A DNA stretch of 64,000 nt from NCBI RefSeq assembly GCF_016919445.1, contig NZ_CP070356.1:2450001-2514000 (forward strand). Reading direction: 5' to 3'. How positions within the stretch are numbered: position 1 is the first letter of the stretch; each line of letters begins with the position of its first letter. Both the position numbers and the translations under genes were made by a program. The notes beneath the pieces are model-generated. The model was not told the DNA's origin and made no database searches. It saw only the letters and a list, made by a program, of their open reading frames with translations. Below, piece by piece: positions 37,384 through 47,224 of this stretch. This DNA comes from Pseudomonas sp. PDNC002 (GTDB lineage: Bacteria; Pseudomonadota; Gammaproteobacteria; Pseudomonadales; Pseudomonadaceae).

Positions 37384-37620
37384 TTCCCCGCTCCAGATCC
37401 CCGCCGAATGTATTCCTTTGTATCTGCCGCTCCCTGAGCCGGCACACGCATACAAAAGCCTCCCGCCGCCGATACGCCCGCGATACATCGCTACGGCGAA
37501 ATAGCCCTACCCGAACGAAACAACGCGACGGCAGGGAAAACCCTCCAGAGCATCGTTCCAGGGATTCGCCCTTGCGGCATGACCCGGCGCCCAACGCGCC
37601 ACAGCATCTGGAGAAGCACA

Positions 37621-38157
37621 ATGACTGGTATCGCGAAAACCCTGCGTTCCAAATCCCAACTGGGCCTGCTCGCTGTCGCCCTGGCCGGTGGCTTGAACAT
37701 GGCGTCTTCGGCCTTCGCCTTAGAAGCACTGCCGCAGGGTTACCAATTGGCCTCCGCCGCCAAGGCCGGGGAGGGCAAGTGTGGCGAGGGCAAGTGCGGC
37801 GCCGCCAAGGAAGCCAAAGCCAAGGCCAACCAGGGCGAAGGCAAGTGTGGCGAAGGCAAATGCGGCGCCGACGGTGCCCAGGCCAAGGCTAACGGCGCCG
37901 AGGGCAAATGCGGTGAAGGCAAGTGTGGCGACGCCTCCTTCGCCCGCACCGATGCTGACCACGATGGCCGCGTCTCCCGCGCCGAACTGCTGGCCGTGGC
38001 GCCCAAGGCCAACGCCGAGTTCGACGCCATCGACGCCAACCACGACGGCTACCTCTCTGAAGCCGAGGTCTATCAGTTCCGCAAGAACCAGTTCGACTCC
38101 AACGGCAAGCCGTTCCCGTCGGACCTATACAGCAAGCTGAGCCAGGCCAAGAACTGA
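37621..38157 (+). CDS. hvfA: HvfA-type RiPP metallophore precursor with EF-hand tail
   Basis: A 178-aa exported precursor. The signal peptide (about 1-33, ends 'SSAFA') is followed by a Cys core with three copies of 'EGKCGEGKCG' at residues 51-60, 73-82 and 94-103, spaced by Ala/Lys-rich linkers. There are six Cys in all, each in EGKC context. This is the HvfA signature, in which an MNIO enzyme converts Cys into metal-binding oxazolone/thioamide groups. Unusually, the tail holds two EF-hand loops, 'DADHDGRVSRAE' (111-122) and 'DANHDGYLSEAE' (138-149). 'ggagaagcaca' precedes the ATG. It leads an operon with hvfB and hvfC. Confidence 0.85.
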   Translation: MTGIAKTLRSKSQLGLLAVALAGGLNMASSAFALEALPQGYQLASAAKAGEGKCGEGKCGAAKEAKAKANQGEGKCGEGKCGADGAQAKANGAEGKCGEGKCGDASFARTDADHDGRVSRAELLAVAPKANAEFDAIDANHDGYLSEAEVYQFRKNQFDSNGKPFPSDLYSKLSQAKN

Positions 38158-38218
38158 CATTCGCCGCTGACCTCCCCGCGCCGCTGGCCGGGGAGGGCAC
38201 TTCGCCAAGGAGACCGCC

Positions 38219-39064
38219 ATGACCACGACCGTATCCCTGCACGGAGCTGGCCTCGGCCTGCGCCGCGCCATGCTGCCCGACCTGTTGACCATGGACGACC
38301 GCGCCGTGGACTTCCTCGAAGTCGCCCCGGACAACTGGATCGGCGTTGGCGGTTCCTACGGCGAAGGCCTGGCGCGCCTGGCCGAACGCTTCCCGCTGTC
38401 CTGCCACGGCCTGTCGCTGTCCCTCGGCGGCCCGGAACCGCTGGACCACGTTTTTCTGCGCCGCGTCCGCGAATTCCTGGATCAGCACAATGTGCCGCTG
38501 TTCAGCGAACACCTGAGCTACTGCTCCGACGAAGGCCACCTTTACGACCTGATTCCCATGCCCTTCACCGAAGAGGCCGTGCGCCACATCGCCAGCCGCA
38601 TCCGCGAAGTGCAGGACGTTCTCGGCCGCCGCATCGCCGTGGAAAACATCTCCTACTATGCCGCGCCCTACCAGGCGCTGAGCGAGATCGACTTCCTGCG
38701 CGCTGTCCTCGACGAAGCCGATTGCGACCTGCTGCTGGACGTCAACAACCTCTACGTCAACGCCCACAACCACGGCTACGACGCCGCCAGCTTCCTGGCC
38801 CGCGTGCCGGCGGAACGTGTCGTCTGCCTGCACGTCGCCGGGCACTACGACGAGGCGCCGGACCTGAAAGTCGACACCCATGGCGCTGCCGTGAAGGACG
38901 ACGTCTGGAGCCTGCTGGCCAGCGCCTATCAGCACCTGGGCACGGTCCCGACCCTGCTGGAACGTGACTTCAACCTGCCGCCGCTGGCCGAGTTGCTCGG
39001 CGAAGTGGATTACATCCGCGGCCTGCAACGTGCCGCTCGCCAGCCGGAGGTGCGTCATGGCTGA
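38219..39064 (+). CDS. hvfB: HvfB-type MNIO (DUF692) RiPP maturase
   Basis: A 281-aa multinuclear non-haem iron oxidase (DUF692), TIM-barrel fold. Metal-ligand segments are recognisable: '[11 protein letters not shown]', 'FSEHLSY', 'AVENISYY', '[16 protein letters not shown]', '[10 protein letters not shown]', 'DTHGAAV' and '[10 protein letters not shown]'. In this family the enzyme, with a DUF2063 partner, oxidises Cys residues of the EGKC repeats. 'aaggagaccgcc' lies before the ATG. The stop overlaps the start of hvfC by 8 bases. Confidence 0.92.
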
Positions 39065-39812
39065 GTCCCTGCGCGAACAGCAACTGCGCATGAGCCGCTA
39101 CATCCGCGACCCGCAGGCCAACGAGCCGCCGCCCGGCATCGAGGCACGCCGCCTGGCGGTCTACCGGCAACTGTTCTTCGGCAACCTGCAATCGCTGCTG
39201 GCCGGCAACTTCCCGGTGCTGCATGCCAGCGTTCCGCGCGAGCAATGGCAAACCTTGACCGAGGATTTCTACGCTGGCTTCCGCTGCCAGACGCCGCTCT
39301 TCACAGAGGTTGCCGGCGAGTTCGTCGACTATCTGGAAGGCCGTGGCGAGCAACCCGGCTGGGTGGCCGAGCTGGCTCACTACGAATGGATCGAGACCGC
39401 GCTGCTGCTCAGCGACAAGGCCGAACCGGCTTATGATCCGGATGGCGATCTGCTCGACGGTGTGCCGCTGCTTTCCAGCCTTGCTGCGCCATTGGCGTAT
39501 GCCTGGCCGGTCAGCCACATCGGCCCCGAGAGCATTCCCCTGGAAATGCCGGCCGAACCGACACTGCTGCTGGCCCGCCGGGGCACCGACCTCAAGGTGC
39601 ACTTCTCGCGCCTGGCGCCGCTGGCCCATGCCCTGCTGGTATCCCTGCAGCAGTGGCAGCTCACCGGTCACGAACACCTCAAGGCGCTGGCGGAAATCGT
39701 CGGCGTCGAACTGGCTGCCATCGAAGAGCAAGGCATCGCCTTGTTGCGCAGCCTGAAGGAACAAGGCGTGGTGATCGGCACCCGCCCCAACTGCACCACT
39801 CCACGCCGCTGA
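39057..39812 (+). CDS. hvfC: HvfC-type DUF2063 RiPP maturation partner
   Basis: A 251-aa protein with the DUF2063 N-terminal domain ('[51 protein letters not shown]' region) and the C-terminal domain with '[19 protein letters not shown]'. DUF2063 proteins bind the precursor and present it to the MNIO enzyme. It overlaps hvfB by 8 bases, so the two are expected in stoichiometric amounts. No DoxX gene follows here as in many hvf operons; a candidate lies at 46724. Confidence 0.9.
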
Positions 39813-40410: not shown

Positions 40411-41838
40411 TCACCTGTAAGCGCTGGGGGCCGCTTCCCCGCGAAGAGCGCTGGCGAGCGCCTGGAATCCTGCCTGCAGCCTGGAGTCGTCCTGCGCTGT
40501 ATTGCTGATGCTCGCTCGGATGTAGTGCGGCACGGCCGTCCGGCCCACAGCGAAGGATTCCGCTGTGGAGATCAGATAATTCATGAGCTTGAGCTCCGCT
40601 TCGATATCCGATGCCCGCCACGGCTCGGGCACCTCGATCCAGAAGTGAGGGCACTGCGGATGTGTGCGGTAAGTCACTGCGTGCAGGCAGGTTTTCACCC
40701 ATTCCTTGCGGCGGCGGATTTCGGCGGCCTGCAGGCGCAACAGATGGGTTGCCGTGCCGTCTTCGATCCAGCGTGTAGCCAGCTCCATCGCCAGGGGCGT
40801 GGCCATCCAGCAGGAGGCGCGAATGGCGGCGGCGATCTGGCCGACCATCTGCACCGGAGCGTGTACATAGCCAACCCGCAGTCCGGCCGAGACTCCCTTG
40901 CTCAGGCCGCCAATCAATACGGAACGTTCGGGGGCGTAGTGGCTGAGCGGCAACGGCCGGCTCTCCAGCAGCGCGGCATGGGTCTCGTCCTCCAGGATGA
41001 GAACATTGTGCTGTCGGCAGATTTCCGCCACGGCCGCACGCCGCTCTTCGGAGAGCACCGAGGTCGTGGGGTTCTGCAGGGTCGGCGTGCAATACAGCGC
41101 CGCAATCCGATTCTGCCGGCAGAGCTCGTCCAGCGACTCGGGCAATATGCCCTCGGCATCCATCGCCGCGCCCAGCAGGCGGATGCCTAACAGACGCGCG
41201 GCGGTGATGAGACCGGGGTAAGTGAGTTGCTCGGTCACCACGGTATCGCCCGGGCGTAGCAGGGAGGAGAGCGCGCACATCAAACCGTGCTGGCCGCCGT
41301 TCACGCACAAGACCTGTTCCGCTTCAGGTTGGAATGCGCCATTTGACAGCCATTGCGCACCTGCCTGTCTGAATCTGGGAAGACCCGTGTCGGGGGTATA
41401 AAGCATCAGCTCCTGGATTATTCGTTTATCCTCGGAAAGTTCTTTAAGGCTTTTCTCAAAGAAAGGTATCTCTGCACCTGGAATATGCATGTTCCGACTC
41501 ATGTCAAATAAATCGGGCGTGCTTTCTATGAAGTTTCTGAAGCCGGCCTCACGTCTGTTTTCCTGTCCTAGCTGACGCACGAAAGTTCCGTCTCCCACCC
41601 GCGCAATTGTCAGCCCCAGTCGTTCCAGTTCGGCATAGGCGCGGCTGACGGTACCAATGGTGACGCCAATTTGATCGGCCAAAATACGATGGGGAGGTAA
41701 CTTCATTCCGGCATTAAAAGTACCTTCTAGAATGCTCTTTTCCAGCGCTGCGGAGAGTCTCTTGTATTTTGCTCCAGGAGCTGATCGAAGCGCGTTCCTC
41801 AGAATTGACACGATGTCAATATAGGGTTTGACAGCCAT
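40411..41838 (-). CDS. MocR-type GntR/aminotransferase transcriptional regulator
   Basis: A 475-aa MocR-type regulator. The N-terminal winged HTH runs about residues 24-95 ('LSAALEKSILEGTFNAGMKLPPHRILADQIGVT', 'TVSRAYAELERLGL') and is linked to a PLP-dependent aminotransferase-like domain. The lysine expected to bind PLP is in 'LIGGLSKGVSAGLRVGYV'; 'DETHAALL' carries the usual Asp. MocR proteins sense an amino acid or PLP-derived compound. It is divergent from the exporter/JAMM/E1/cysteine-synthase operon and is the likely regulator of it. The frame extends 12 codons upstream to a TTG; the ATG at 41838 has 'gaggggcaaa'. Confidence 0.88.
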   Translation of the reverse strand: MAVKPYIDIVSILRNALRSAPGAKYKRLSAALEKSILEGTFNAGMKLPPHRILADQIGVTIGTVSRAYAELERLGLTIARVGDGTFVRQLGQENRREAGFRNFIESTPDLFDMSRNMHIPGAEIPFFEKSLKELSEDKRIIQELMLYTPDTGLPRFRQAGAQWLSNGAFQPEAEQVLCVNGGQHGLMCALSSLLRPGDTVVTEQLTYPGLITAARLLGIRLLGAAMDAEGILPESLDELCRQNRIAALYCTPTLQNPTTSVLSEERRAAVAEICRQHNVLILEDETHAALLESRPLPLSHYAPERSVLIGGLSKGVSAGLRVGYVHAPVQMVGQIAAAIRASCWMATPLAMELATRWIEDGTATHLLRLQAAEIRRRKEWVKTCLHAVTYRTHPQCPHFWIEVPEPWRASDIEAELKLMNYLISTAESFAVGRTAVPHYIRASISNTAQDDSRLQAGFQALASALRGEAAPSAYR

Positions 41839-41921
41839 TTTGCCCCTCAAATAGCCTCGAATTAATGGATTCAATCAGGCATTGGACCAAGACAATAACG
41901 TGCAATCGAGGCAATGACATC

Positions 41922-42866
41922 ATGTCGACGACATCGGCCGCATTCTCCACGGATAAGATCAGAAAACCTTGGCTGGCGGGTTTATTGACCGGGTTGTTAT
42001 TTCTTTGCGTTTGCCTGAGTTGGGGGACCACCTGGCTGGGCATCAAGATAGCGGTGGAAACCGTTCCACCATTGACGGCGGCAGGCTTGCGCTTCCTGAT
42101 CGCCTTTCCCCTTTTCATCACGTTTGCCCTCGTGCGCCGCGATCCGATATTTTTCCCGCGCGGCACTCAAGGGTTCTTCGTCTTCGTCACGCTGATGTAT
42201 TTCAGCGTGCCTTATTACTTGCTCAATTACGGTGAAACCCATGTTTCGTCAGGATTGACCGCGCTGCTCTTCAGTTGCATGCCGGTATTCATCCTGGCGT
42301 TTTCTGCGCTGTTGCTCAAAGAGCGTATTTATCTCTCGCAGATCATCGGCATCGTCATCGGCTTCGGCAGCCTTTATATGATCCTGCGGGTACAGGGTGT
42401 GCGCGTCGATCGCGCGGAATTCTGGGGCGTATTGGCCATTCTGGCGGCCGCCGTAATGCATGCGCTGTGTTACGTGATCACCAAGAAGAAGGGCGCCCAG
42501 ATCAGTGTCATCACCTACAACGCCTTGCCGATCGGAATCGCCGGACTTCTGCTGTTTGGTCTCGGCTTGGCCATGGAAGAGCCGCAGTTTTCGGTCATTA
42601 GCGAGCGCTCCTGGTGGGCGCTGATCTATCTGGGCATTTGTGCTTCGGTGGGTGGATTTATCGCCTACTTCGTCCTGCTCAAGCGTTTGAGCCCAGTCGT
42701 GCTGTCCTTCGTTTTCATCATCTTCCCCGTGTTCGCCGTGATCATCGGCTCCTGGTACGAGGGGCAGTTCATCTCCCCGGAACTGGCGTTGTATTCGGCG
42801 TTATTGCTCCTGGGGTTCGCTATAACCAAGGTGCCCGTCGAGCAGTGGTTGGCAGCGAGGAGATGA
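41922..42866 (+). CDS. EamA/DMT-family exporter
   Basis: A 314-aa inner-membrane protein with ten predicted hydrophobic segments in two EamA repeats ('LLTGLLFLCVCLSWGTTW', 'LPPLTAAGLRFLIAFPLFI', 'ISSGLTALLFSCMPVFILAF'-type segments, and 'VLSFVFIIFPVFAVIIGSWY'). Several DMT exporters move cysteine, O-acetylserine or other amino acids out of the cell (YdeD/EamA). In this operon the natural guess is export of cysteine or a sulfur-bearing product; that is inference. It is the first gene of the operon opposite the MocR gene and ends 4 bases before the JAMM gene. Confidence 0.85.
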   Translation: MSTTSAAFSTDKIRKPWLAGLLTGLLFLCVCLSWGTTWLGIKIAVETVPPLTAAGLRFLIAFPLFITFALVRRDPIFFPRGTQGFFVFVTLMYFSVPYYLLNYGETHVSSGLTALLFSCMPVFILAFSALLLKERIYLSQIIGIVIGFGSLYMILRVQGVRVDRAEFWGVLAILAAAVMHALCYVITKKKGAQISVITYNALPIGIAGLLLFGLGLAMEEPQFSVISERSWWALIYLGICASVGGFIAYFVLLKRLSPVVLSFVFIIFPVFAVIIGSWYEGQFISPELALYSALLLLGFAITKVPVEQWLAARR

Positions 42867-42870
42867 AGTC

Positions 42871-43332
42871 ATGAGCGCCGAGGACGTTCTGACGGATGCG
42901 GTTGTTCGGGAAATCTTTCGCCATGCCGAAGTGGAGTACCCCGACGAGTGTTGCGGCCTGGTTTTCGCTGACGCCACGGTGCACCTGGGGACCAACATCC
43001 AAGCCCACCTCCACCGTAACCAACCTGAGGTTTTCCATCGCACCGCAGCCAATGGCTACACCTTTGCGGTGCAGGACACCTTGCTCCTCAACCAGAGCCT
43101 GCGAAGCAGCAATCCGGCGAAGGTCATCTATCACTCGCATCCGGATGTCGGTGCCTATTTCAGTCGCGAAGACGAGGACAAAGCGCTGTTCATGGGCCAG
43201 CCGATCGTTCCCGTGGCTTATCTGGTGGTCGACGTTCGTGGCGCGCAGGCGTATGGCGCCAGATTGTTTGAATGGAGCGGTGGCGGATTCACATGCACTC
43301 ATGAACTCACCGGTCAGCCAATCCAGAAATAA
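42871..43332 (+). CDS. JAMM/Mov34 metalloprotease (Mec+/QbsD-like)
   Basis: A 153-aa stand-alone JAMM peptidase. The zinc motif is complete: Glu26 in 'YPDECCGLVF', then His88-x-His90-P with Ser98 and Asp101 in 'HSHPDVGAYFSREDED'. Stand-alone prokaryotic JAMMs cut ubiquitin-like sulfur carriers: Mec+ removes cysteine from CysO-Cys in mycobacteria, and QbsD trims the tail from QbsE in thioquinolobactin synthesis. The next gene carries a ubiquitin-like domain, so that is the likely substrate. It starts 4 bases after the exporter stop. Confidence 0.92.
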   Translation: MSAEDVLTDAVVREIFRHAEVEYPDECCGLVFADATVHLGTNIQAHLHRNQPEVFHRTAANGYTFAVQDTLLLNQSLRSSNPAKVIYHSHPDVGAYFSREDEDKALFMGQPIVPVAYLVVDVRGAQAYGARLFEWSGGGFTCTHELTGQPIQK

Positions 43333-43344
43333 CTAGGAGTCGTT

Positions 43345-44760
43345 ATGAACGCTGTAGTTTTTCCTGAAGTACTGGTCCGGGTAGTCGGGCTGTCATCCAC
43401 GCGCTTGCCGAGCCAAGGCAATACCGCGCGGGAGCGGGTGGAATATCTGTGCGAGCGGCATAGCGAGCTCTGGCAGCACCTGTTCTATGGCAACCATCAG
43501 TTCAAGGAGCATTTTCTCCTGACTTCCAGCGGGCGATTGGTGGATGGTGAAAGCCCACTCGCCGCGGATGCCGAACTGGAAATCCTTCTGGCCACCTCCG
43601 GCGGGCTGGACCTGGATGAATTGAGCAACGACGAGGTACGACGCTACGTCCGGCATATCACCTTGCCCCATGTTGGCCGCCAGGGGCAGCTCCGCCTGAA
43701 GAAAGCGCGGGTGCTGATCGTCGGCTCCGGTGGATTGGGCTCACCTATCAGCTTGTATTTGGCGGCGGCGGGCACCGGAACTCTTGGCCTGGTGGATTTC
43801 GACCGAGTGGAGCGTAGCAATCTGCAGCGACAGGTGGTGCATGGAACAGGCTCGGTGGGGTTGGCGAAAGTGGAGTCGGCGCGGCTGAGGCTGCTCGATC
43901 TGAATCCGGATATCGAGATCCAGGCGCATGATGCGGCGCTGACGGCGGACAACGCCCTGCAGCTGATCGGCAACTACGACGTGGTCGTGGATGGCACCGA
44001 CAACTTCGCGACCCGCTATCTGATCAATAATGCCTGTGTGTTGCTCGGACGCCCGTTGGTCTACGGGGCGCTGCATCGATTCGACGGCCAGGCCAGCGTT
44101 TTCAACCAGGATGACGGCCCCTGCTATCGCTGCCTGTTCCCTCAGCCCCCGCCCGGAGAACTCTCGCCAAATTGCAGTGCCGGTGGTGTCATCGGCGTAC
44201 TGCCGGGCGTCATCGGGCTGATCCAGGCCACCGAGACGGTGAAGCTGATCCTTGGCATCGGCCAGTCTCTGTCGGGGCGTCTGCTGAGATTCGACGCTTT
44301 GGCGATGCGCTTTTCGGAGGTCCTGTACGGGCGACGTCCGGATTGCCCCACTTGCTCTCCGGCGCGAGCGGGACGGGCGCTGCAGCCACAGCCGCAGGTC
44401 TCATGTGCATCGACTGCAGGTTCGGATAGCCGCCTGCCCGATGATTTCTACATCGATCCGCAGCAATTGCACGAGGGGCTTTCGCAGTCTGGTGAGGTAC
44501 GCCTGCTGGATGTACGAGATGCCAACGAGCTGGAGGTCTGTCAGTTGCCGGGTTCGGTGAATATCCCGGTTGGAGAGGTGCGCAACCGCCTGCATGAACT
44601 CGACCGTCGATTTACCTGGTGCGTGATCTGCTATGCCGGGGCGCGGGCCGAGCGGGTGGCCGCCATGATGCTGGCTGAAGGATTCGCTCCTGTTCGTGTG
44701 CTGCGTGGCGGTATCAAGGCCTGGGCGCGTGATATCGACCCTGATATGCCGCTCTACTGA
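43345..44760 (+). CDS. Fused ubiquitin-like (MoaD/ThiS-type) - E1 adenylyltransferase - rhodanese protein
   Basis: A 471-aa three-domain protein. Residues 1-87 are a MoaD-like beta-grasp domain ending in 'LEILLATSGG', the diglycine at 86-87. An E1/MoeB/ThiF domain follows from about 92 ('LSNDEVRRYVRHITLP', nucleotide loop 'GSGGLGSP' at 127-134, 'RSNLQRQ', 'DGTDNF'). Its zinc cysteines are C260/C263 and C334/C337, with a candidate thioester Cys at 277. A rhodanese domain (about 365-471, active Cys429 in 'ICYAGARAERVA') completes it. The protein should adenylate the diglycine tail and load sulfur to give a thiocarboxylate. It lacks a separate carrier because the carrier is built in. MoeZ plus CysO of mycobacteria is the nearest functional model. 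Confidence 0.9.
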   Translation: MNAVVFPEVLVRVVGLSSTRLPSQGNTARERVEYLCERHSELWQHLFYGNHQFKEHFLLTSSGRLVDGESPLAADAELEILLATSGGLDLDELSNDEVRRYVRHITLPHVGRQGQLRLKKARVLIVGSGGLGSPISLYLAAAGTGTLGLVDFDRVERSNLQRQVVHGTGSVGLAKVESARLRLLDLNPDIEIQAHDAALTADNALQLIGNYDVVVDGTDNFATRYLINNACVLLGRPLVYGALHRFDGQASVFNQDDGPCYRCLFPQPPPGELSPNCSAGGVIGVLPGVIGLIQATETVKLILGIGQSLSGRLLRFDALAMRFSEVLYGRRPDCPTCSPARAGRALQPQPQVSCASTAGSDSRLPDDFYIDPQQLHEGLSQSGEVRLLDVRDANELEVCQLPGSVNIPVGEVRNRLHELDRRFTWCVICYAGARAERVAAMMLAEGFAPVRVLRGGIKAWARDIDPDMPLY

Positions 44761-44772
44761 GGTCGCGCCGCC

Positions 44773-45687
44773 ATGATCCATTCCTCATTGCTCCACGTAA
44801 TCGGCAACACGCCGGTGGTGTGTTTGCCGGCGTTCAGCGCGGAGACCGGTTTCGACGTCTACGCCAAGCTGGAGTCCCTGAATCCGGGCGGCAGTCACAA
44901 GGCGCGCATTGCCCTGGCCATGATCCGCGATGCTGAAGAGCGCGGCATTCTGGTGCCCGAAAGTGGGCAGACCATCCTTGAGCCCAGCGGGGGCAACACC
45001 GGCATCGGTCTGGCCATCGCAGCGAACATCCTGGGCTACGGCGTAGTACTGGTGATCCCGGACAACTACAGCCCGGAGAAGCAGAAGCTGTTGCGTCTGT
45101 ATGGCGCCGAAGTGGTGCTGTCGGACAGCCTCCGTGGCAACAACTCACACGGCGAGCGAGCCATGGAGTTGCAGCTCGAGCATCCCGAGTACGTGATGCT
45201 CAATCAGCAGCGCAACCCGGCGAATCCGGATATCCATCGGCGCACCACGGCACAAGAGGTTCTACAAGACTTTCGCGACTCTCCCCCCGATTGCCTGGTG
45301 GCGGGTATCGGCACTGGCGGCCATATCACCGGCCTGGGGGAAATGCTCAAGGCGCGTTGGCCGACACTGGGGGTGTTCGGCGTGGAACCGGAAGAATGCG
45401 ACCTGCTACGTAATCGTCATGCGCCCCATGGCATTCAAGGTCTGTCGATCGGCTTGGTGCCGCCCATTCTCAACCTCGCGGTGCTCGACGGGATGATCAA
45501 GGTGTCCCGCCGCGATTGCCTGACGCGCGTGCGCAAGACCATGCGCGAGGATGGTCTGAGTCTGGGACTCTCCTCGGCGGCCAATCTGGAGGCGATAGCC
45601 CGGATGGTGGGTGAGTGGATGAAAGGGACGCGGGTGCTGACGCTGATTTATGACGGCGTGGACAGCTACCTACCTGAGTTCGAGTGA
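44773..45687 (+). CDS. PLP-dependent cysteine synthase family protein (CysM/CysK-like)
   Basis: A 304-aa beta-family PLP enzyme. The PLP lysine is Lys43 in 'LNPGGSHKARIAL' (the more usual form is GGSVKDR), the substrate loop is 'EPSGGNTGIGLA', and the phosphate-binding loop is 'AGIGTGGHITG'. It should replace the activated hydroxyl of O-acetyl- or O-phosphoserine with sulfur. Beside a thiocarboxylate-forming E1 and a JAMM peptidase, it may accept sulfur from the carrier protein as CysM does from CysO. It lacks the C-terminal CBS domains of cystathionine beta-synthase. The gene has its own binding site 12 bases after the E1 stop. Confidence 0.88.
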   Translation: MIHSSLLHVIGNTPVVCLPAFSAETGFDVYAKLESLNPGGSHKARIALAMIRDAEERGILVPESGQTILEPSGGNTGIGLAIAANILGYGVVLVIPDNYSPEKQKLLRLYGAEVVLSDSLRGNNSHGERAMELQLEHPEYVMLNQQRNPANPDIHRRTTAQEVLQDFRDSPPDCLVAGIGTGGHITGLGEMLKARWPTLGVFGVEPEECDLLRNRHAPHGIQGLSIGLVPPILNLAVLDGMIKVSRRDCLTRVRKTMREDGLSLGLSSAANLEAIARMVGEWMKGTRVLTLIYDGVDSYLPEFE

Positions 45688-45703
45688 CATTGCGGAGATT
45701 TCC

Positions 45704-46711
45704 ATGCCACGACGTTTCAAGCGGACCGCGCTCGAGGAGCGCTTGTTCGAGCTTCTCGAGCAGGTCCTCAAACCTGCCGACTGGGTGCAGTTGATTCCCT
45801 GTCTGGATAGCCTCTGGTCCATCAGCGTGGTGCAGATTGAGCAAGACCTGCGGGCCTACGCCGAGCGTGACCCCGCCTCCAATGGGCGGGTTGAGGTGAT
45901 ACTCGATAGTTACGCCTCGTTCAGGGCGATTCTGTTCCACCGCTTCGCTCACGAGATCTGGCACAACGATGCTATCGCTGACCATGAGGCGATCGCCCAG
46001 CGGCTGGCCAACGCTGGGAAGTTGCAGTCCGGCGCCGAGATCCATCCCTGCGCCTGCATCGGCCGGCGCTTCGTGCTCGACCATGGCTATGGAACGGTGA
46101 TCGGGGAAACCTGTGAAATCGGTGATGATTGCTACCTGCTCAGTGGGGTGACGCTGGGAGCATCCGGTATCGCTGACAATGGCCTGGGCAAGCGCCATCC
46201 GACCTTGGGCAGTCAAGTGGAGATTGGTGCGGGTGCGCGGGTGTTGGGCGCGGTCACCATCGGCGACAACGTGTTCATCAGCCCGGCCTGCGTCATCACG
46301 CGCGATGTGCCCGCCAATTGTCGAATCAGCGTGGCCAATCAACTGCAGCTGCAGCGTAACGGCTCCATGTCCAGCCGGGGGTACATCGGAGCCTTCGTCG
46401 CCGAAGGCTATATACATCTCGTGGGTGAGCTGCTCCCCACGTCAGTGCTGGCCCTGGTGGACGCCGATCATCGGCCACTGCATTGGCTGGAAGTGCGGAA
46501 TGAATCAGCCAGCCGCCACCATGCCCAGTACAGCGTTCATCGGTTGACGGTAGCTGACCTGGATTCGAAATTACCAATCAACCTGTGCCTGCATGGGCCG
46601 GGACAGGACATCACGCTGATCGATCCGCCGGGCCTGGCTCAGTTGATCTGCGCAGTGGCTCAGTCACGGGAGCAGACGGCGGATTCTGCAACGATGCTGC
46701 ACCCGGCCTGA
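45704..46711 (+). CDS. Serine O-acetyltransferase-like protein with C-terminal extension
   Basis: A 335-aa CysE/EpsC-type protein. The N-terminal helical domain (1-105, 'ASFRAILFHRFAHEIW') precedes a left-handed beta-helix with hexapeptide repeats (110-215). The helix contains 'FVLDHGYGTVIGETCEIGDDC' with catalytic His127, 'LGKRHPTLGSQVEIGAG' and 'VFISPACVITRDVP'. It should make O-acetylserine for the cysteine synthase upstream. After about residue 215 there are 120 residues ('IGAFVAEGYIHLVGELLPTS' onward) that I cannot match to any acetyltransferase tail. The ATG at 45704 follows 'tgcggagatttcc'; it lies 16 bases after the cysteine synthase stop. Confidence 0.85.
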   Translation: MPRRFKRTALEERLFELLEQVLKPADWVQLIPCLDSLWSISVVQIEQDLRAYAERDPASNGRVEVILDSYASFRAILFHRFAHEIWHNDAIADHEAIAQRLANAGKLQSGAEIHPCACIGRRFVLDHGYGTVIGETCEIGDDCYLLSGVTLGASGIADNGLGKRHPTLGSQVEIGAGARVLGAVTIGDNVFISPACVITRDVPANCRISVANQLQLQRNGSMSSRGYIGAFVAEGYIHLVGELLPTSVLALVDADHRPLHWLEVRNESASRHHAQYSVHRLTVADLDSKLPINLCLHGPGQDITLIDPPGLAQLICAVAQSREQTADSATMLHPA

Positions 46712-46723
46712 GCCGTTTGCATT

Positions 46724-47224
46724 TCACTTCAGAAACCTGACCAGGGCGCGGTCGAGGCTGAAATGTCCGGAGCCCTTCAACACCAGCGGCACCAGCGCCA
46801 CCAGGTAGATCAGCGGCAGTTTGTAGTTGCCGAATCCGTGGTCGGTAATCGAGTAGCCCTGGGCCAGTTCCGCGAGGCTCGACCACTGCGCCGGCCAATG
46901 CACTGCTGCGATGGCGACAAGGGTCACGACGATCAGCGAGGCCGAGGCAAAGCGCGTGGCCAGGCCCAGCAGCAACAAGATTGGCGCGATCAGCTCGGCC
47001 CACATCGACACCTGCCAGTCGAAGCCGGCGGAGAAGTGGTTGAAAGGGAAGGGGAAGCTGGCGTGGATCTGTTCGAACCAGTTGTCGCCGTGCCATTTCT
47101 CCAGTCCCGACTCGAAGAATTCCCAGGCCAGGAACAGCCGTAGCGGAATGTCCCAGCCCCAGGCGGCGAGGCGGTCGAGTTGGTCGAATGCGGTCTTGAT
47201 CGGGTTCAGGGTCAGCAGGGTCAT
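46724..47224 (-). CDS. DoxX family membrane protein, HvfX-like
   Basis: A 166-aa inner-membrane protein with four hydrophobic segments. 'LRLFLAWEFFESGLEKWHGDNWF' near the N-terminus and the C-terminal 'HGFGNYKLPLIYLVALVPLVLKGSGHFSLDRAL' resemble HvfX, the DoxX-type protein normally found in hvf metallophore operons. It lies 7 kb from hvfABC and on the other strand. The ATG at 47224 follows 'gaggtgcgcc'. The adjacent upstream gene is a ferric-reductase-like protein. DoxX function in RiPP systems is not settled. Confidence 0.82.
   Translation of the reverse strand: MTLLTLNPIKTAFDQLDRLAAWGWDIPLRLFLAWEFFESGLEKWHGDNWFEQIHASFPFPFNHFSAGFDWQVSMWAELIAPILLLLGLATRFASASLIVVTLVAIAAVHWPAQWSSLAELAQGYSITDHGFGNYKLPLIYLVALVPLVLKGSGHFSLDRALVRFLK

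Follow-up and report, generated by a model that had tools for sequence, protein, structure and literature searches.

A conserved operon with a ubiquitin-like domain fused to E1-rhodanese in Pseudomonas sp. PDNC002: a possible protein-thiocarboxylate pathway

The five-gene operon and its relatives

The window, a 64,000-nucleotide stretch of the Pseudomonas sp. PDNC002 genome (NZ_CP070356.1), carries on its plus strand five co-directional genes which, according to open reading frames (ORFs) and domain searches, encode an EamA exporter, a JAMM peptidase, a fusion of a ubiquitin-like (UBL) domain with E1 and rhodanese domains, a CysK-like synthase and a serine acetyltransferase. The gaps between them are 4, 12, 12 and 16 bases, in agreement with the tightly spaced operon described in the original prediction, and the domains assigned there were borne out by Pfam and NCBIfam profile matches. 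The features are as follows.

40411..41874, minus strand: MocR-type regulator (GntR and aminotransferase fold; Pfam GntR and Aminotran_1_2), divergent, longest ORF
41922..42866, plus strand: EamA/DMT-family exporter (Pfam EamA, 5e-44)
42871..43332, plus strand: JAMM/Mec-type metallopeptidase with complete HxHx10D motif (Pfam Prok-JAB, 1.9e-16)
43345..43605, plus strand: ubiquitin-like sulfur-carrier domain, residues 1-87, ending LATSGG (Pfam ThiS, fold, tail conservation)
43603..43608, plus strand: predicted JAMM cleavage point between GG and L, residues 87/88 (from conservation and the UBLs near unfused relatives)
43645..44349, plus strand: E1-like adenylyltransferase domain of MoeB/MoeZ type with nucleotide loop, catalytic-type Cys and two CxxC (Pfam ThiF, 1.3e-79)
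44458..44730, plus strand: rhodanese domain with Cys active loop (Pfam Rhodanese, 2e-14)
44773..45687, plus strand: CysK-like PLP synthase (PALP) with the Asn loop altered from TSGNTG to SGGNTG (TIGR01136/01139, below cut-off)
45704..46342, plus strand: serine acetyltransferase-type catalytic part, a CysE-like hexapeptide protein (TIGR01172, 1.3e-45, below cut-off)
46343..46711, plus strand: C-terminal beta domain of the acetyltransferase, linked to the operon; in the window its last about 20 residues have diverged (homology with locus L005 ends)
46648..46766, no strand: site where relatives hold the acetyltransferase tail and an AlaX gene (blastn against L005, the window being about 0.7 kb shorter)

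A search for this gene neighbourhood across genomes, which had been proposed as a check, recovered the same gene order in 38 other loci. Since the order is retained although identity of the fusion protein falls to as low as 48%, the arrangement is not due to chance. The count leaves out L107, L108, L110, L111 and L122, which are the same contigs as L008, L016, L010, L014 and L012, respectively, the single decayed copy L015/L068 (synthase and acetyltransferase gone, E1 shortened), L017 (28% match) and the unfused relatives L050-L055 and L069; counts among the 38 loci are not independent, as several look near-identical (e.g. L012/L057/L109 and L058/L059). New from these loci are an invariant UBL tail, open frames common to JAMM and UBL, a linked AlaX gene and an orphan acetyltransferase domain. 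The dN/dS ratio per operon gene between the window and L005 was about 0.06-0.23, which we count in favour of the pathway proposed below. The operon is also separate from housekeeping functions, as had been suggested, because the genome has its own CysK, CysM, CysE, MoeB, ThiS and MoaD-like carrier, the last scoring below cut-off.

A plasmid search with the fusion gave 493 matching records, 6 of which covered 80% or more of the query. None of the 20 matches listed was this fusion; the best-covered among them comes from a Paraburkholderia plasmid on which MoaD/ThiS and ThiF are separate genes next to YcaO/TfuA. In the class sample, queried with the fusion, no fused E1 was recovered other than that of the window. 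With the synthase as query, 30 of the 398 genomes in the phylum sample gave a match, 24 of them outside the family; in the 14 of these 24 loci that were examined, the 3.5-3.9 kb covered contained no other operon gene.

With regard to the flanking functions, the EamA protein has YedA as its nearest NCBIfam model (94.5 bits against a cut-off of 270) and scores just 34 bits on the O-acetylserine/cysteine exporter model, which speaks against the proposed pathway. The nearest model to the regulator is EhuR (439.5 bits against a cut-off of 480). A divergent MocR gene is found in 37 of the 38 other loci, with no match in L106, and an intergenic alignment of 10 loci places its conserved start probably near 41838. 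We do not take a conserved palindrome near this start for an operator, since it falls within the sequence that codes for MocR. The promoter scan of the operon yielded no sigma-70-like site, and terminator-like sites were about as frequent as in shuffled sequences. The case for inducibility comes from P. aeruginosa transcriptomes only: in the published data available, PA2101-2104 and PA2106 go up together with the heat-shock sigma factor RpoH, and PA2100-PA2103 go up with N-acetylcysteine, a response explained by its authors chiefly as zinc starvation (PMC9431628). Both responses count for the pathway proposed below. The PA14 entry is given as ND (not determined), and nothing was concluded about strain-level absence in P. 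aeruginosa. One of PA2100-PA2106, the equivalent genes by annotation in the papers, still carries a molybdopterin-synthesis name.

The UBL-E1-rhodanese fusion and the JAMM peptidase

The fusion ORF (43345-44760, plus strand) encodes ThiF and rhodanese domains plus about 90 extra N-terminal residues. In 12 out of 13 sequences, that of the window among them, this N-terminal stretch matched Pfam ThiS at E<=1, with 2e-6 as the best value; the window copy itself, at E 0.005, is below cut-off. Its predicted model had a mean pLDDT of 88, and the three best PDB matches obtained with Foldseek were SAMP1 and two CysO chains (TM 0.76-0.80); judged by profile and predicted fold, the stretch is a UBL domain. 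Across 38 sequences (the window and 37 others) the LATSGG tail is invariant at 6/6 positions, compared to 10/81 in the UBL body and 1/6 in the next six linker residues, and the distant loci L104-L106 retain LATSGG while their linkers differ. Moreover, of 7 loci with small UBL-like ORFs near unfused E1-rhodanese relatives, 5 have the ORF stopping precisely after GG. An invariant tail next to a variable body and linker, together with the GG ends of the UBLs encoded near unfused relatives, makes it probable that the UBL is excised from the fusion after Gly-Gly. As the UBL is fused to the E1, such a cut would be required before any thiocarboxylate could form, a point missed by the original prediction. 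The P1' residue after GG varies among relatives (Leu, Met, Ile or Asn), so that only the GG side could give the JAMM its specificity, and this we count against the proposed pathway. We considered whether cutting would give the E1 a Leu degron at its N-terminus and dropped the idea, as many relatives have Met, Ile or Asn at P1'.

The E1 part passes the cut-off of the NCBIfam MoeB subfamily NF004281 (301.5 against 266), while that of the MoeZ equivalog NF005902 was not reached (391 against 647). Having passed the MoeB cut-off, it may serve a molybdopterin-type role, which also speaks against the proposed pathway. The key Gly and Cys positions of the E1 and the Cys, Gly and Arg of the rhodanese loop are invariant in the 38 sequences, and the rhodanese domain is fused in every intact locus.

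The window JAMM carries HSHPDVGAYFSRED and has the complete HxHx10D metal motif, which is present in 38/38 other loci as well. The Glu was judged only on the string EECCG, found in 36 of the 38 other JAMMs, and on PDECCG in the window. With Glu and HxHx10D both in place, the window protein is by its motifs a JAMM/MPN+ peptidase. One open frame holds both JAMM and UBL in 19 of the 38 loci; in these frames translation of the UBL could also begin internally at its own Met, which weakens their weight for the proposed pathway.

Synthase, acetyltransferase and the missing AlaX gene

The synthase motifs NPGGSHK and SGGNTG were found in 38/38 other loci. The window enzyme scored 270 bits on the cysK model and 198 on the cysM model, both below cut-off. 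Its sequence is CysK-like and the operon has its own acetyltransferase, in contrast to the CysM type that uses O-phosphoserine in the CysO-CysM-Mec-MoeZ pathway. Together with the Ser-to-Gly change in the substrate loop, this argues against the proposed pathway, as CysO is known with the CysM type instead.

The acetyltransferase reached 155 bits on TIGR01172, short of the cut-off of 210.65 for CysE, and the catalytic His motifs LDH[GA] and KRHP are found in 38/38 other loci. Its extra domain occurs in 17 of 198 genomes, all 17 of which also hold the full-length fusion, a count that reads one way (each genome with the extra domain has the fusion). The -GG end suggested a second ubiquitin-like domain, but this found no support: the model is a beta domain for which a PDB fold search gave no match at E<=0.001. 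The C-terminus reads HPA in the window, GG in 33 of the 38 others and II in one (L106); the window protein thus lacks the C-terminal Ile that docks in the CysE-CysK cysteine synthase complex.

The original prediction had taken the five genes as self-contained, but the related operons have six: an AlaX-type tRNA-editing gene follows the acetyltransferase in 38/38 other loci and is absent from the window. From the alignment, the window copy is seen as a derived, shortened allele, and without AlaX and the acetyltransferase tail it may be decaying, which again counts against the proposed pathway. HxxxH, CxxxH and GGGQP are all found in 37 of the 38 AlaX genes. Three operon copies matched the AlaX-M model NF040865 (E 7e-55 to 3e-61, 186-207 bits, below the cut-off of 300); they resemble free-standing AlaX-M editing proteins in this match and in HxxxH and CxxxH, but differ in being sub-cut-off and fixed in a sulfur/amino-acid operon. 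Judged by gene content, AlaX in the relatives hints at an unusual product, and its constancy is left unexplained by plain cysteine.

Proposed pathway and rival explanations

The core of the operon was listed by Iyer, Burroughs and Aravind in 2006 as uncharacterised operon type 4c, P. aeruginosa included (PMC1779556, Table 1 row 4c), and the window likewise holds a ThiS/MoaD-like UBL, E1-rhodanese, JAB and cysteine synthase together. No mention was found, in the text of that paper available, of the UBL fusion, acetyltransferase, permease or alanyl-tRNA editing. Within the literature searched, the original statement that no characterised example is known is valid for the complete set, but the core had already been catalogued; biochemistry was found for no member in that literature, which is a point against the proposed pathway.

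The suggested likeness to CysO-CysM-Mec-MoeZ is supported by UBL fold, tail and domain set, the UBL being CysO-like with a C-terminal GG that is internal until cut. The mycobacterial CysO-CysM-Mec+-MoeZR system, as described, combines a UBL thiocarboxylate donor (the role proposed here for the window UBL), E1-rhodanese, a PLP synthase and release by a protease, and this chemistry counts for the proposed pathway; its genes are separate, MoeZR lies away from CysO and CysM, and the substrate is O-phosphoserine (PMC3227635). The window, in contrast, has a fused UBL, a CysK-like enzyme with its own acetyltransferase and an exporter, with AlaX in the relatives. QbsD is a JAMM protein. The QbsC/D/E and PdtF/G/H siderophore systems are similar in E1-rhodanese, GG-exposing protease and UBL (PMC6006322, PMC1779556), and QbsD provides a known example of a protease that uncovers a GG hidden behind a cap (PMC6006322), whereas the window operon and its divergent regulator include no siderophore backbone or activation gene (CoA ligase, CaiB-like) and GG is capped by the entire E1-rhodanese. 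MoaX, a fused MoaD-MoaE, also has its UBL GG joined to the next domain and requires cleavage there (PMC4326299); its partner is MoaE and the account gives no identified protease, while in the window the partner is the E1, with the JAMM beside it or, in relatives, in frame.

We give about an even chance to a protein-thiocarboxylate pathway dedicated to making cysteine or a very close analogue of it, with carrier and activating enzyme made as one precursor; its sulfur-carrier part is well supported by the sequence. The JAMM would cleave the precursor after the UBL Gly-Gly to give free UBL and E1-rhodanese, the E1 would adenylate the UBL C-terminus, and the rhodanese persulfide would convert it to UBL-COSH. 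The acetyltransferase would supply O-acetylserine, from which the CysK-like enzyme would form aminoacrylate and add UBL-COSH. After an S-to-N shift the same JAMM would cut the UBL-Cys amide at the same Gly-Gly, and EamA would export the product. In relatives an AlaX-type deacylase, lost in the window copy, would clear a mischarged amino acid from tRNA. We infer every reaction and cleavage, the product, its export and the tRNA target. The operon could be a compact test bed for maturation and re-use of a ubiquitin-like sulfur carrier, in which one JAMM may cut the same bond twice, for carrier release and product release, and the constant AlaX partner in relatives suggests a threat to translation from something that the pathway makes. 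An extended version seems rather doubtful: a self-processing JAMM-UBL-E1-rhodanese polyprotein (one chain in relatives) and a specialised PLP synthase would make a secreted Ser/Ala/Cys-like amino acid, AlaX would self-protect, the acetyltransferase -GG tail of most relatives would mimic the UBL tail and dock on and control the synthase, and the window would be a natural variant that lost proofreading gene and tail together.

An unlikely alternative to the cysteine pathway is that the product is a non-protein amino acid mimicking Ser, Ala or Cys, secreted by EamA, with AlaX guarding against its entry into protein. The combination of acetyltransferase, CysK-like enzyme and DMT exporter resembles the D-cycloserine cluster. 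AlaX in 38/38 other loci (motifs complete in 37) and the altered substrate loop in 38/38 fit this, as do free-standing deacylases with targets unlike those of their synthetase kin, one cited for canavanyl-tRNA in the review consulted (PMC11415595). However, UBL-COSH and aminoacrylate would by the best chemistry yield cysteine, in the PDB listing the synthase has cysteine synthases as closer neighbours than O-ureidoserine synthase, the operon has no further tailoring enzyme, and the window manages without AlaX. We hold it to be improbable that the operon makes a secreted metal chelator of the thiol or thiocarboxylate kind, comparable to PDTC or thioquinolobactin, when metal is short: the zinc-starvation reading of the PA2100-PA2103 response and the JAMM/UBL/E1 parts common to siderophore clusters point that way, but these genes carry no Zur regulon mark in the table of that study (PMC9431628), and no CoA ligase, CaiB-like protein or other siderophore backbone function is encoded by the five genes of the window operon.

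Still less probable is a SAMP-like protein-conjugation system with the JAMM as deconjugase and the sulfur genes incidental. SAMP1 is indeed the nearest UBL fold and the JAMM matches the desampylase model (E 1.2e-6, below cut-off), yet the operon includes no E2-like gene, the rhodanese fusion holds in all intact loci, and linkage to synthase and acetyltransferase is constant. The CysK-like sequence and the MoeB cut-off passed by the E1 would suit an accessory sulfide-using cysteine synthase with acetyltransferase, the UBL-E1-JAMM acting elsewhere, e.g. in molybdopterin synthesis; we judge this improbable, as the genome already holds CysK, CysM, CysE, MoeB and a MoaD-like carrier, and fusion and extra acetyltransferase domain travel together. 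In the published account, furthermore, a P. aeruginosa cysK cysM double mutant with PA2104 present showed no growth up to 18 h and then recovered (PMC12800425).

Gene content, genomic setting and distribution

The co-directional five-gene set with short gaps and a divergent MocR regulator described in the original prediction was found in the window as follows.

Operon features in the window
41922–46711, + strand: five-gene operon (gaps of 4, 12, 12 and 16 bases; MocR-type regulator opposite)
Gene 1, + strand: EamA domain
Gene 2, + strand: Prok-JAB (JAMM) domain with HSHPDVGAYFSRED
Gene 3, + strand: ThiF and rhodanese, with about 90 additional N-terminal residues
Gene 4, + strand: PALP domain
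Gene 5, + strand: CysE-like hexapeptide protein with an extra domain

A neighbourhood search across genomes showed that this order recurs in all 38 other loci, with an AlaX gene as a sixth member: EamA, JAMM, UBL-E1-rhodanese, synthase, acetyltransferase, AlaX. The divergent MocR was present in 37 of them, and a MocR search at L106, one of the three most distant loci, gave no match. In the other two, L104 and L105, 378–391 bases without a clear ORF separate EamA from JAMM, the operon being tight elsewhere.

The genome (6.39 Mb, one contig) encodes separate CysK, CysM and CysE elsewhere, each exceeding its model cut-off, as well as MoeB and ThiS, likewise above cut-offs, and a MoaD-like carrier scoring below both MoaD cut-offs within the stretch scanned. 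Given these separate copies, the operon does not serve as the housekeeping supply, in line with the original prediction.

The operon is scattered and accessory, occurring in at least three families. Within the genus the protein was detected in 4 of 25 genomes at E ≤ 1e-90 (one a stump). Among 298 genomes of the family, 37 passed 1e-100, comprising 30 full-length fusions (the window's included), one broken junction, one stump and five with unfused E1-rhodanese only. Nine of 390 genomes in the order sample passed 1e-120, three of them from other families, and 2 of 369 in the class sample passed 1e-110, namely the window and one unfused E1. The matches include P. nitroreducens, P. alcaligenes, P. 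otitidis and Vreelandella boliviensis. L015 (the same as L068) occupies the same chromosomal site with a decayed version of the operon, which has lost the synthase and the acetyltransferase and has a shortened E1 but retains an AlaX match.

Iyer et al. 2006 (PMC1779556) catalogued the operon core among uncharacterised types, for P. aeruginosa and other organisms. We took PA2100–PA2106 as the equivalent, an assignment resting on the papers' annotations and gene order rather than sequence comparison. In these papers, RpoH induction raised PA2101–2104 and PA2106 2.2- to 4.3-fold (PMC9866376), N-acetylcysteine raised PA2100–2103 (log2 0.7–1.7; PMC9431628), PA2105 is noted as a second possible acetyltransferase alongside PA2104 (PMC13256707), and PA2104 and/or PA1061 are suspected of rescuing a cysK cysM mutant at a late stage (PMC12800425). 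Among the titles listed in our literature searches, which covered mainly open-access papers, none was on the whole gene set.

The fused ubiquitin-like domain and its tail

By profile and model comparisons, the N-terminal domain of the fusion is a sulfur-carrier-type UBL. The window UBL matched Pfam ThiS at E 0.005, below the cut-off, and ThiS matched 12 of 13 UBL sequences at E ≤ 1 (best 2e-6). Against the PDB, a profile of these 13 sequences reached SAMP1, CysO-type and MoaD-type chains at E 0.04–0.4 only, and one unrelated chain at E 1.9. The AlphaFold model (mean pLDDT 88, tail loose) had SAMP1, the BexX/CysO complex and mycobacterial CysO as its top Foldseek matches (TM 0.76–0.80).

Conservation within the UBL is highest in its GG tail. 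Of the 38 other loci, 37 keep LATSGG intact, and in the remaining one, L049, the frame is disrupted precisely at this motif. Among 38 intact fusion sequences, window included, invariant positions numbered 6/6 in the tail, 10/81 in the UBL body, 1/6 in the following six residues, 110/252 in E1 and 15/107 in the rhodanese. The three most distant loci keep the tail unchanged with a different linker. Where E1-rhodanese is unfused, a small ORF, UBL-like as judged by eye, terminates exactly in GG in five of seven loci; no such ORF was found at L052 and L069. An E1 adenylates a free C-terminus only. Unless the fusion is cut, therefore, there is no clear reason for the tail's top conservation.

JAMM and UBL share one open frame in 19 of the 38 loci. 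In 18 (L060–L067, L112–L121) the frame encodes a single JAMM-UBL-E1-rhodanese chain, of 619–620 residues in the eight measured; the nineteenth is L049, whose UBL-E1 junction is broken. Since every UBL starts with Met, an internal start at the UBL is possible. In thioquinolobactin synthesis, a sulfur carrier is uncapped by QbsD (PMC6006322), and JAB cleavage of fused ThiS/MoaD was proposed by Iyer et al. 2006 (PMC1779556).

Synthase, acetyltransferase and AlaX

The synthase is CysK-like, its nearest solved relatives being cysteine synthases; all 38 other loci keep the lysine motif and have SGGNTG replacing TSGNTG. The acetyltransferase catalytic His motifs are likewise found in all 38. Its C-terminal domain (about 115 residues) occurs in 17 of 198 genomes, and all 17 of these domain-bearing genomes, to which the comparison applies, also carry a full-length fusion; the model of this domain is beta-rich (pLDDT 82) and matched no PDB fold at E ≤ 0.001. 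The acetyltransferase ends in GG in 33 of the 38 (L006–L014, L016, L049, L057–L067, L109, L112–L121), and lacks this end in L005, L056, L104, L105, L106 and the window. The notion that this end mimics the tail of the UBL is speculative.

The AlaX-M-like gene lies just after the acetyltransferase or overlaps it in all 38 other loci (broken in L109), and HxxxH, CxxxH and GGGQP were all found in 37. Three copies scored 186–207 bits against the AlaX-M model, short of the cut-off of 300. A search of the window for AlaX gave none at E ≤ 1e-5. Alignment with the relative L005 showed homology ending within the acetyltransferase at ~46648 and restarting at ~46766, and L005 has its AlaX gene between these two points. 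With AlaX missing and the homology interrupted, the window copy is thus a shortened derivative. Another AlaX, 44% identical, is encoded elsewhere in the genome and may substitute. Judged from dN/dS values against L005 of ~0.06 to 0.23, with synonymous distances near or beyond saturation, the window genes still look constrained despite the shortening.

Proposed pathway and neighbouring systems

The best account of the whole set is that a fused sulfur carrier would be matured by the JAMM protein and would then supply the CysK-like enzyme, a chain to which we give even chances; its sulfur-carrier part by itself is likelier. By the simplest chemistry the product would be cysteine. A cysteine-only account may be incomplete, the strongest hint being the fixed AlaX partner.

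On a Paraburkholderia megapolitana plasmid (L018), a MoaD/ThiS-family gene adjoins a ThiF-family gene near repeated YcaO/TfuA pairs, possibly a thioamide RiPP or related sulfur system. The window itself also carries a metallophore cluster, in which the fusion of an HvfA-like precursor to EF-hands looks unusual.

HvfABC-type features in the window
37579–39812: HvfABC-type RiPP metallophore cluster
37579–38157: HvfA-like precursor, KCGExKCG repeats and C-terminal EF-hand part
38219–39064: HvfB maturase of the cluster
38964–39812: HvfC of the cluster
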